From the NCBI RefSeq assembly GCF_011038975.1, contig NZ_JAAKEC010000009.1, positions 62,001-126,000 on the forward strand: 64,000 nt of DNA. The letters run 5' to 3'. The stretch comes from Adlercreutzia sp. ZJ176. GTDB taxonomy: Bacteria > Actinomycetota > Coriobacteriia > Coriobacteriales > Eggerthellaceae. Shown here piece after piece: positions 168 through 20,590 of this stretch (positions are counted from its first letter, which is position 1; each line of letters opens with the position of its first letter). The notes below the pieces were generated by a model that did no database searches, was not told the DNA's origin, and was given only the letters and a program-made list of their open reading frames with translations. The translations under genes were made by a program, and so were the position numbers.

Positions 168-1292
168 TTACTCGATGACTTCCTTGAGGTACTCCCTGAA
201 GCCGGGAAGGCTGAAGCGCAGCTTGCCCCTGAGGCCCTTTTCTATGATGCCGTCCTCCAAGAGGCGCTTCTTGTACGTCGAGACGTGCCCGCTCGACTTG
301 CCGAGGCGGTCGACTAGAGCCGACGAGTCGGTCTCCCCCTCGTCGGCGAGCATGGCACGCAGGAAGTCCACGTCGCCGTCGGACAGCTCGTTGAACGTCG
401 CGTCGAAAACCTGCCGCCGCAGCTCGCCCTGGGCGAGCCTCACGCCAGCTTCGACGCTCTTCTCGGTGATGACGTCCTCGCCGCGCGACGCGCTCCACAT
501 GCGATACCCCACCAGCTGGTACATGAATGGGAACCCGCCCGTCGCCTCGACGGCCCGGGAAAGGGCCGCCTGCCCGATGGCCTTCCCCGCGCCCTCGATC
601 GTCACCACAAACGCTTCCTCAATGTCATGGGCGGGAATGGACCCGAGGTCATGCCGGAACGCACGCCTGAGGAACGAGGTGGACTCGCCCGAGAGGAGCA
701 CCGACACGTTGTAGGGCAGTCCGGCCATGAGAAGCGCCACCTTCCTGCCTTCGCGGACGAAGTGCTGGTACGTGGTCGCAAGCTGGACCATATCGTCAAG
801 ATGGGGGTTGACCTCATCGACGGTTATCAGAAGTCCCGTATCCGTCTGAGCGAGCTGATCGAGCAGCAGGTTCATCTTCGATCGCCAATTCAGCGACGGA
901 TCGGCAACGTTCTCCCAGCTGATGCTCACGAGCCCGCCCACGCCGATGCCGGTAGCCTTCCTCTTCGGAGCCGCCTCGAGCAAGTGGGCAGCTTGCTCGG
1001 TCGCACGCTGCACGATGTCATCGAGCATTCCCGGAACAGCCGTCACGCTCACCGCCACCCAGCCCCTTGACGAAGCCTCGGTGGCGAGGCGGGAAAGCAG
1101 CGCAGTCTTCCCCGTTCCACGCGCTCCAACGAAGATCGATGAGAGGTTCGGATCGCCTTCGCCCACCTCAAAGGCGCAGACCATGTCGCTGATGATGAGC
1201 TCGCGCCCCGCCAGATAGGAGGGGACCTTGCCGAAGACGGGCGTGAAGGGATTGGCAGGCTGGTTGGGGTTCTCCCTTTGAGCTTGAGGCAT
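168..1292 (-). CDS. AAA-type ATPase with C-terminal winged helix
   Basis: This encodes a 374-residue P-loop ATPase. The Walker A motif is GARGTGKTA (about residues 55-63) and the Walker B is LLITVDEV (about 145-152). The middle part resembles the ORC/Cdc6-like AAA_16 group of stand-alone ATP-binding proteins. The last 70 residues look like a winged helix (SSGHVSTYKKRLLEDGIIEKG), so the protein probably binds DNA. Three candidate starts lie close together, GTG 1301, ATG 1298 and ATG 1292; the last sits best behind the GAGGAAGG ribosome site. No partner gene follows, and the role is unknown. The T-rich periodic array at 1337-1435 lies directly in its promoter region and is a plausible binding site for the protein or for its regulator. 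Confidence 0.8.
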   Translation of the reverse strand: MPQAQRENPNQPANPFTPVFGKVPSYLAGRELIISDMVCAFEVGEGDPNLSSIFVGARGTGKTALLSRLATEASSRGWVAVSVTAVPGMLDDIVQRATEQAAHLLEAAPKRKATGIGVGGLVSISWENVADPSLNWRSKMNLLLDQLAQTDTGLLITVDEVNPHLDDMVQLATTYQHFVREGRKVALLMAGLPYNVSVLLSGESTSFLRRAFRHDLGSIPAHDIEEAFVVTIEGAGKAIGQAALSRAVEATGGFPFMYQLVGYRMWSASRGEDVITEKSVEAGVRLAQGELRRQVFDATFNELSDGDVDFLRAMLADEGETDSSALVDRLGKSSGHVSTYKKRLLEDGIIEKGLRGKLRFSLPGFREYLKEVIE

Positions 1293-1336
1293 TGCCATCA
1301 CCTTCCTCGTGCGCTTTTCGCAACTGCTCCGTGCCC

Positions 1337-1435
1337 TTTACGCGCTTTAGCCATTTTTACAGCTTTTAGCGGGTTTTACAAGTTTTAGCGTCCTTTAGAA
1401 CTTTTAGCTTCCTTTAGTTTCTTTAGCATCCTTTG
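1337..1435 (-). repeat. Phased TTTA (TAAA) iteron-like array
   Basis: On the + strand TTTA begins at 1337, 1346, 1356, 1365, 1375, 1384, 1394, 1403, 1413 and 1422, and TTTG at 1432. The intervals alternate strictly 9, 10, 9, 10, giving a 19-bp period with an exact half-period. The bases between are only partly conserved (often GCnnCC after every second unit). The array lies 45-145 bases upstream of the AAA ATPase start. The spacing close to one helical turn puts every unit on nearly the same face of the DNA, as in regulator or initiator iterons. Confidence 0.8.
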
Positions 1436-1468
1436 GCGCTTTGGGCGGAAGAGTCGAGGTGTTTAGCC

Positions 1469-1500
1469 GTGTCAAAAATACTCGGGTTCATTTTTGACAC
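1469..1500. promoter_or_regulatory. Palindrome GTGTCAAAAAT / ATTTTTGACAC
   Basis: Two perfect 11-bp arms (1469-1479 and 1490-1500) are separated by 10 bases. The site is AT-rich, lies just beyond the TTTA array and has no flanking T-run, so it reads more like an operator than a terminator. What binds it is unknown. Confidence 0.5.
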
Positions 1501-1548
1501 AGCCACCACCAGCGTTTTGGTCAGCGTTCATGCAAGATACAAGCGAAA

Positions 1549-3366: not shown

Positions 3367-3488
3367 GCCGAAACTCCTTTGCGATAAGAGACGATTTCTG
3401 AAATTATAATTTGCCTCAACGCACATTCCAATCACGATGCGGCGTTTGCCGCTTCGTTTGCGGAAAGAGCACGTCCGGAAGGGGGCCC

Positions 3489-4349
3489 ATGCGAAGCGGG
3501 AGCGACAACGGCGGGGGCGTCGGCTGCGGGGGCGTCAGCCGCGGGGGCGTCGAGCGCGGGAACGACAGCTGCGAGGGCGTCGGCCGCGAGAGTGCAGGCC
3601 GCGTGCGCGCAGGACGCGAGGGCGCCAGCTGCGGGGGCGTCAGCTGCGGGAACGTCGAGGCGGCCAAGCGCGCGTTGCGCGCGCGGCTCAAGAACGCGCG
3701 GGCGGCCCTGTCGCCCGATGAGCGCGCGGCGGCCGACGCGCGCATCGCCGCGCAGCTGTTCGAGCTGGACGCATGGCGGCGCGCAGACGTGGTGCTTTCG
3801 TACCTGTCGTTCGGATCCGAGGTTGACACGCGCGCGATCATCGAGCGCGCATGGGCGGAGGGCAAGGCGGTGGCGCTGCCGCGCTGCGTGTCGGGCACGC
3901 GCCTCATGCGCTGGCATCGCGTGACCAGCCTCGGCGCACTTGAGCGCAGCGCGTTCGGCGTGGAGGAGCCGCCCGACGACCCCGCCACGCTCGTCGACCC
4001 CGGCACGCTGGCGCCCACGGACACGCCCGCGACCGACGATGCCGGTGTCGCCGGAACTGGTGCCGCCGCAGGTGCCGCCGACGCCGCCAGCACCACCGCG
4101 CCTGCACCCGCAAGCACTCGCAGCCCGCGTGCCCTCGCGCTCGTGCCCGGGCTCGCCTTCGACGCGCAGGGCTTCCGCATCGGCTACGGCGGCGGCTTCT
4201 ACGACGCCTTCCTCGCCGCCTTCCCCGGCACGTCGGTCGGGCTGTGCCGCGAGGCGTCCCTGCTTTCCAGCCTGCGCGCGCAAGACGCGCTCGACGCCCA
4301 CGACAGGCCCGTCGACATCGTGCTCACAGAAGAAGGCGAAACCGCCTGA
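3489..4349 (+). CDS. 5-formyltetrahydrofolate cyclo-ligase
   Basis: The enzyme performs the ATP-dependent conversion of 5-formyl-THF to 5,10-methenyl-THF in folate one-carbon metabolism. Family marks are AKRALRARLKNAR near the start, VVLSYLSFGSEVDT, ALVPGLAFDAQGFRIGYGGG (nucleotide and substrate loop) and the final RPVDIVL. At 286 residues it is longer than the usual 180-200. About 55 N-terminal residues are Gly/Ser/Arg repeats encoded by a degenerate 15-bp GC-rich repeat (3500-3660), and about 45 Ala/Thr/Pro residues interrupt the core between the LGALER segment and ALVPGL. The ATG at 3489 follows GGAAGGGGG. A start inside the repeat cannot be excluded. The gene shares a bidirectional terminator with the formate dehydrogenase gene. 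Confidence 0.88.
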   Translation: MRSGSDNGGGVGCGGVSRGGVERGNDSCEGVGRESAGRVRAGREGASCGGVSCGNVEAAKRALRARLKNARAALSPDERAAADARIAAQLFELDAWRRADVVLSYLSFGSEVDTRAIIERAWAEGKAVALPRCVSGTRLMRWHRVTSLGALERSAFGVEEPPDDPATLVDPGTLAPTDTPATDDAGVAGTGAAAGAADAASTTAPAPASTRSPRALALVPGLAFDAQGFRIGYGGGFYDAFLAAFPGTSVGLCREASLLSSLRAQDALDAHDRPVDIVLTEEGETA

Positions 4350-20063: not shown

Positions 20064-20318
20064 TCCGCATCAGGCGCCTGTCATGTCATCCCGAGCGAAC
20101 GTCAGGAGATACCCCGATGTCACCCCGAGCGAGCGGCTCCGCACCCTGGGCGAATCTCCCTCCTCATGTCATCCCGAACGAACGTCAGGAGGTGCCCCGA
20201 TATCATCCTGAACGAACGTCAGGAGGTGCCCCCCTGTCACACTGATCGAGCGGCTCCGCACCTTGGGCGAATCTCCCTCCTCATGCCATCCTGGGCGAAC
20301 GTCAGGAGGTGTCCCCCG

Positions 20319-20443
20319 TGTCATCCTGAGCGAGCGAAGCGAGTCGAAGGATCTGGCCCCGGGTACGGCGCGCCCGCATGCGCCACCTGCTTGCGACCAG
20401 ATCCTTCGACTCCGCGCCTGCGGCGCTCCGCTCAGGATGACAC
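20319..20443. repeat. 125-bp palindromic repeat, copy 2 (inverted relative to copy 1)
   Basis: It runs from GTCATCCTGAGCGAGCG to GCTCAGGATGACAC. Its reverse complement aligns with copy 1 at 13409-13533 along the arms, while the central loop differs. Confidence 0.85.
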
Positions 20444-20450
20444 GGGGGGT

Positions 20451-20590
20451 GTGCCGCGGCATGCTCGAACGCGCAGGTGAGGGCGGATGGCGGCGCTCCG
20501 CTCAGGATGACATGGGGGGGCGTGCCGCGGCATGCTCGAACGCGCAGGTGAGGGCGGGCACGCGACACGGGCGCGCAGGTGAGGGCGGAT
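20451..20590. repeat. 71-bp direct repeat, about two units
   Basis: GTGCCGCGGCATGCTCGAAC begins at 20451 and again at 20522, each followed by GCGCAGGTGAGGGCGG. The first unit also carries a half-arm of the palindromic element. Confidence 0.75.

Follow-up and report, generated by a model that had tools for sequence, protein, structure and literature searches.

Direct-repeat arrays next to the gene of their binding protein are a feature of iteron-Rep systems and of TubR/ParR centromere systems, and they are often autoregulated. The former need a Rep domain and the latter a separate filament NTPase. BldC of Streptomyces is a MerR-like winged-helix protein of 68 residues which places one protomer on each 9-bp direct repeat. 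It forms head-to-tail filaments on variable numbers of repeats; these could block RNA polymerase, and promoter occlusion has been proposed (PMC5859096). For PhoP of M. tuberculosis, one account gives 7-bp direct-repeat motifs with a 4-bp spacer (PMC4832192). IniR is an 818-residue ATPase whose sensor domain is MalT-like and whose DNA-binding end is LuxR-like (PMC5760070). The system analysed here pairs an AAA+ ATPase gene with an upstream array of short direct units; it may work like BldC or PhoP/PhoB on tandem repeats, and it belongs to neither family. The first-pass annotation knew of no described element with this spacing. As to spacing this calls for a qualification, since each protomer in a BldC filament takes up 9 bp (PMC5859096); as to the pairing of array and ATPase, no published description was found in the open-access literature.

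The locus lies in the window, which is the whole stretch of 64,000 nucleotides that was analysed. It has the following features:

168..1292, minus strand: orphan ATPase, AAA_16 domain and C-terminal winged helix (open reading frame and Pfam; start codon placed by eye)
171..389, minus strand: winged-helix region, residues ~305-377 (structure prediction, block pLDDT 75-91)
255..293, minus strand: recognition helix, residues 337-349 (structure prediction, and covariation windows over residues 329-352)
789..1214, minus strand: AAA_16 domain (residues 30-171 in the 377-aa reading); its Walker A is GARGTGKT and its Walker B ends in DE
1307..1313, minus strand: probable ribosome-binding site AGGAAGG of the ATPase (by eye)
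1337..1435, minus strand: array of 11 direct units, the proposed operator array of the ATPase (sequence, and upstream arrays in homologues)
1436..1443, minus strand: degenerate outer unit, TTTG at 1440, whose 8-bp step breaks the rhythm (sequence)

ATG 1292 is the preferred start of the ATPase, as AGGAAGG precedes it by about 8 bases; GTG 1301 and ATG 1298 are in-frame alternatives. From ATG 1292 the protein has about 374 residues, and residue numbers follow the 377-aa reading. It passes the gathering threshold of Pfam AAA_16 (PF13191; 34.2 bits against 32.6), and 33 of 34 family members match this model at E <= 0.001. The curated family libraries gave nothing beyond AAA_16: no curated NCBIfam or PADLOC model accepts the window ATPase, and there is no confident PADLOC match to an antiphage defence ATPase (best E 0.013, in the Walker A region only). 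The neighbouring AAA ATPase had been read as carrying a winged helix, and this agrees with both the AAA_16 match and the structure prediction, which places helices at 308-318, 326-333 and 337-349 and wing strands at 353-355 and 361-363. The AAA part of the model is poor (mean pLDDT 58) because the alignment had only three sequences.

If the ATPase binds its array as proposed below, the likeness to BldC would be one protomer per direct repeat of about 9 bp, the spacing here being 9-10 bp. BldC, however, has no ATPase, serves many genes with one protein and has a loosely conserved repeat, whereas the array ATPases have a fused AAA+ domain and seemingly one private array per protein, with an alternating 9/10 or a fixed step. 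The window protein, at 377 residues with AAA_16 and a winged helix, is not a small MerR-like protein free of other domains. OmpR/PhoB-type regulators also place tandem winged helices on direct repeats about one turn apart, but they usually use two sites with an 11-bp step, carry a receiver domain where the array proteins have their ATPase, and control many-gene regulons; no Pfam match to a receiver domain or to Trans_reg_C was found in the window protein or the family members. The order AAA+ then winged helix is that of Orc1/Cdc6, with the AAA part modelled at low confidence, and in the fold comparison Orc1/Cdc6 bound to origin DNA comes out best, although the whole-chain fold scores are low. 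The curated Orc1/Cdc6 cut-off is not reached (12.4 bits for the window protein against 181.3; best weak member match E 9e-5). IniR and STAND-like proteins would share with this family the use of an AAA+ ATPase as a transcription regulator; the array ATPases differ in having about 370 residues and no sensor domain. Neither a Rep domain nor a separate filament NTPase is seen with them, in contrast to iteron-Rep and TubR/ParR systems, and no Rep family is among the Pfam and NCBIfam matches of the window protein and 34 members. By these measures the system is outside Orc1/Cdc6, Rep-iteron and the known defence families.

In the array of the window, TTTA starts at 1337, 1346, 1356, 1365, 1375, 1384, 1394, 1403, 1413 and 1422, and TTTG at 1432, in strict steps of 9, 10, 9, 10 bp and so on. 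On the minus strand, which is that of the gene, the units read (C/G)TAAA, i.e. CTAAA or GTAAA. The array is upstream on the gene's own strand, and about 45 bp separate its end from the likely ATG (1292). The eleven alternating units reported in the first-pass annotation are thus exact. When the 200-bp region was shuffled 5,000 times with dinucleotides preserved, the longest alternating chain had 4 units, against 11 at the array, and the longest in the rest of the window has 2; the strict 9/10 chain of 11 is not a chance product. A general array score ranks this segment first among 751 in the window (48; mean 12.9, sd 3.6), and Tandem Repeats Finder reports the stretch as overlapping arrays with a period of 19. 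The pattern TAAA-N5/6-TAAA-N5/6-TAAA has its sole match in the 2.7-Mb genome at this array; a search of the whole genome with exact TAAA triplets found no regulon of the window protein elsewhere.

The closest sequenced relative of the locus is in Adlercreutzia sp. ZJ473 (L034). Its ATPase is 93% identical and its array is in register with that of the window. Over the ten-unit, 96-bp core there are 10 differences, none of them in the TAAA cores, which take up 40 of the 96 positions (P = 0.003). Conserved motifs among varying intervening bases had been pointed out from the window sequence, and the comparison upholds this. The ZJ473 locus has extra CTAAA units on the outer side of the array (the 1436..1443 side in the window). 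Farther out, window positions 1461-1505 contain an imperfect inverted repeat (GTGTCAAAAAT...ATTTTTGACAC). The matching spacer in ZJ473 holds a divergent hipA-like gene pair (1076-2712) which the window does not have, and the window repeat may for this reason be a left-over operator.

Homologues were gathered by protein sequence, and arrays were thus not selected for. An array was called where a spaced-word array within 200 bp upstream scored above the best of 20 shuffles of that region. Such arrays precede 79 of 91 Eggerthellaceae homologues, probably a lower bound, as some of the failures come from truncated genes, from runs of N or from starts set in the wrong place. The array detector presumes steps of 9 or 10, autocorrelation presumes no spacing, and start codons were set by rule. 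Mean autocorrelation of the homologues' upstream regions peaks at lags 9-10, 19, 28 and 38; in two control stretches, one further upstream and one within the gene, the 3-bp rhythm of codons is the main signal. The period which was to be looked for upstream of orthologues is therefore present. Outside the Eggerthellaceae, arrays are found in further Coriobacteriia and on Arthrobacter, Citricoccus and Cellulosimicrobium plasmids, and in total more than 100 relatives of the window gene carry them, with differing units. The ATPase homologues are found on many plasmids, and in those that are annotated their neighbours vary (integrases, HipA, DUF3800, RES, AbiEii). Chromosomes carry up to nine scattered copies, and many genomes have fragments or interrupted copies, as expected of accessory genes. 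Phages gave one distant unannotated match; IMG/VR gave one locus and three further scans none. Distant relatives, whose proteins mostly start with MDP, have no arrays. In three loci of other Actinomycetota (L205, L210 and L215), short palindromes such as CTTATCC...GGATAAG were seen by eye upstream of the ATPase, which suggests that a palindromic operator may have expanded into, or given way to, a tandem array.

The units are private to lineages. CTAAA is found at the window, L034 and L036; TGCAAAA at L014, L016, L020 and L108; GCGAAA at L022; ATCAA at L006, L043 and L104; TAGGAAAA at L003 and about 20 others; TGATAGA/TGATAAA at L002, L031, L048 and L064; ACAGTAAA at L078 and L085; TTCTAAG at L120; GCTATA at L144; TTGGTATAA at L157; and GACTCACA at L167. 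GGTACAC is a further unit of the family. Four paralogues in the window's own genome (L001-L004) have four different units. Units of same-genome paralogues differ no more than those of different genomes at equal divergence; this comparison leaves cross-talk avoidance, or selection for orthogonality among paralogues, unsupported.

The steps, on the other hand, are shared; nearly all are 9 or 10, and now and then a position is skipped (19). Strict alternation is seen in 36 of 48 mixed 9/10 arrays, against 9 expected on shuffling of the order (maximum 19), and some lineages have a constant step of 10 or of 9. The 19-bp period proposed from the window is thus common without being universal. In the ACAGTAAA arrays (L083, L078, L085 and L164) the rhythm upstream of the ATPase is 10, 19, 10, 19, which looks as if every third slot of a 9.5-bp grid were empty.

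When whole genomes were searched with degenerate three-unit patterns, all matches but one were upstream of ATPase homologues. The array had been open to the objection that it might recur at unrelated loci as a simple satellite; it is unique in its own genome, and in other genomes the single match away from an ATPase is an orphan array of CTAAA units (L227:1443-1495; G059:C5:120261-120293). This lies between a dmsB-like gene and an endonuclease IV-like gene (nfo) with no ATPase nearby. It is followed by a GGTTGCGC...GCGCAACC palindrome, and two more CTAAAA units, 9 bp apart, are found just ahead of nfo. Sister species have neither array nor ATPase at the locus. The orphan array may be left over from an ATPase that was lost, or it may be a target in trans.

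The unit covaries with the recognition helix. An all-pairs scan with 16-residue windows along the protein, which is blind to the position of the helix, has its peak of covariation with the unit at residues 332-347. A second test used 51 nearest-neighbour pairs that do not overlap, so that shared ancestry weighs less; here the top three 16-residue windows are, in this order, those that start at 329, 333 and 337. For the helix (335-348) the partial rho given ATPase identity is 0.46, a value reached by 4 of 10,000 permutations; it is -0.08 for the remainder of the winged helix and -0.26 for the lid. At matched ATPase identity, unit similarity is higher where the N-terminal half of the helix is shared than where it is not (0.60 vs 0.42, 0.72 vs 0.52 in the 50-60% identity bin, and 0.81 vs 0.57). 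Residue by residue, the top position (339) is in the recognition helix, but just 2 of the top 20 are in helix 333-348; because this signal is spread outside the helix, the claim rests on the windows and the independent pairs. Some array/helix pairs in the 51-pair test are off the trend. Residual phylogeny could account for part of the covariation, even though ATPase identity is controlled for in the pair test. It should be noted that the link is correlational and that the measure of motif similarity is crude; it is nevertheless difficult to account for the blind localisation in another way.

We consider it likely that each ATPase uses its winged helix to bind head-to-tail on its own array, and that it represses its own promoter. 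Coevolution of helix and unit supports the binding step, and the array would then be an operator for the ATPase itself. The recognition helix of a single winged-helix domain would read each unit (about 5-7 bp), and protomers would line up head-to-tail, with 9-10 bp, or close to a turn of DNA, for each. The 9/10 alternation seen in many lineages suggests that two protomers on 19 bp form the repeating unit. The AAA+ domains would join the protomers cooperatively into a short nucleoprotein filament which covers the promoter or the 5' leader, thereby lowering transcription of the ATPase gene, and nucleotide state might release or tighten this filament. The code would be a private one: as the recognition helix changes, the whole array changes too. 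In the TAGGAAAA clade, TTGAC, as a -35 element, is found directly before the array, and the -10 would fall inside it, so that a filament would occlude the promoter; this makes negative autoregulation the likeliest sign. Promoter occlusion is thus suggested in clades other than that of the window. At the window's own locus, where no sigma-70 promoter of at least 9/12 was found, we infer it.

The same complex might instead act positively, the ATPase on its array activating its own or a divergent gene as an autoregulator or signal-dependent switch, like MalT or IniR. The IniR model is matched weakly by 2 of 34 members, some arrays are well upstream of the start codon, and a hipA-like gene in ZJ473 diverges from the intergenic region of the array. 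We regard activation as unlikely, since the divergent neighbour is not conserved and is absent from the window locus, and since the TAGGAAAA and ACAGTAAA arrays cover the -10 or run towards the ribosome-binding site, a layout suiting repression.

It is quite improbable that the arrays are centromeres, partition sites or replication-initiation iterons, i.e. nucleation sites for a DNA-replicating or DNA-segregating AAA+ filament, left over from a mobile replicon or an active part of one. The domain order and the best fold match recall Orc1/Cdc6 on origin DNA, TIGR02928 (orc1/cdc6) is matched weakly by 4 of 34 members, many plasmids carry homologues, and copy number and gene fragments suggest turnover. 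These weak matches are, however, below the curated cut-offs and the AAA fold model is of low confidence. Up to nine copies are scattered over one chromosome, a rep, parA or tubZ partner is as a rule absent alongside in annotated cases, and the position of the array follows the promoter and leader of the ATPase. The first-pass annotation had compared the array to iterons on which the ATPase could assemble. Family recurrence and the tracking of the recognition helix lend support to assembly as such rather than to iterons in the replication sense.

Many units have AAA or AAAA near helical phase, and phased A-tracts could give bent or UP-element-like DNA that stimulates a promoter without a dedicated binder. 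Several lineages have units without A-tracts (GACTCACA, GGTACAC, TGATAGA, GCTATA), which rules out pure bending as a general account, and curvature requires neither a lineage-private flank nor covariation with a recognition helix; we judge this reading very improbable. A neutral satellite or polymerase-slippage repeat would explain units in tandem, but it can be dismissed, as the array is unique in its genome and recurs elsewhere with many unrelated units in a common spacing, the spacers vary while the cores are kept, and with one exception the arrays are confined to ATPase genes.

Repression by a filament on the array may not be the whole function. In a broader and rather doubtful reading, the ATP-controlled filaments of a large, undescribed class of AAA+ winged-helix proteins would also sense invading DNA, or serve the replication or maintenance of the carrier element, and the array code would diversify in the manner of incompatibility or phage immunity groups. 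The link to a specific DNA target makes the function of an orphan ATPase family, with up to nine copies per genome in gut Coriobacteriia, testable. The more than 100 natural pairs of recognition helix and target, at nearly equal spacing, make up a data set on the choice of DNA words by winged helices. Should they prove orthogonal, they would also be a natural set of independent repressors.

Two plasmid loci (L172 and L176), one on a plasmid labelled Bacillus subtilis (CP123774.1) and the other on a Brevibacterium spongiae plasmid, share the recognition helix of the ATPase, have TCTATAAAC units in common and are similar in gene order downstream. The host label may be questionable, or there may have been a recent transfer. 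Other tandem repeats are also present in the window. Two nearby ones are found at 20082-20333 (117 bp, two copies, CATCCTGAGCGAACGTCAGGAG...) and 20420-20557 (71 bp, two copies, 95% alike). GC-rich tandem repeats of 15/30/60 bp at 3496-3651 are in the N-terminal part of an open frame (3411-4349, plus strand), where they encode a low-complexity leader.
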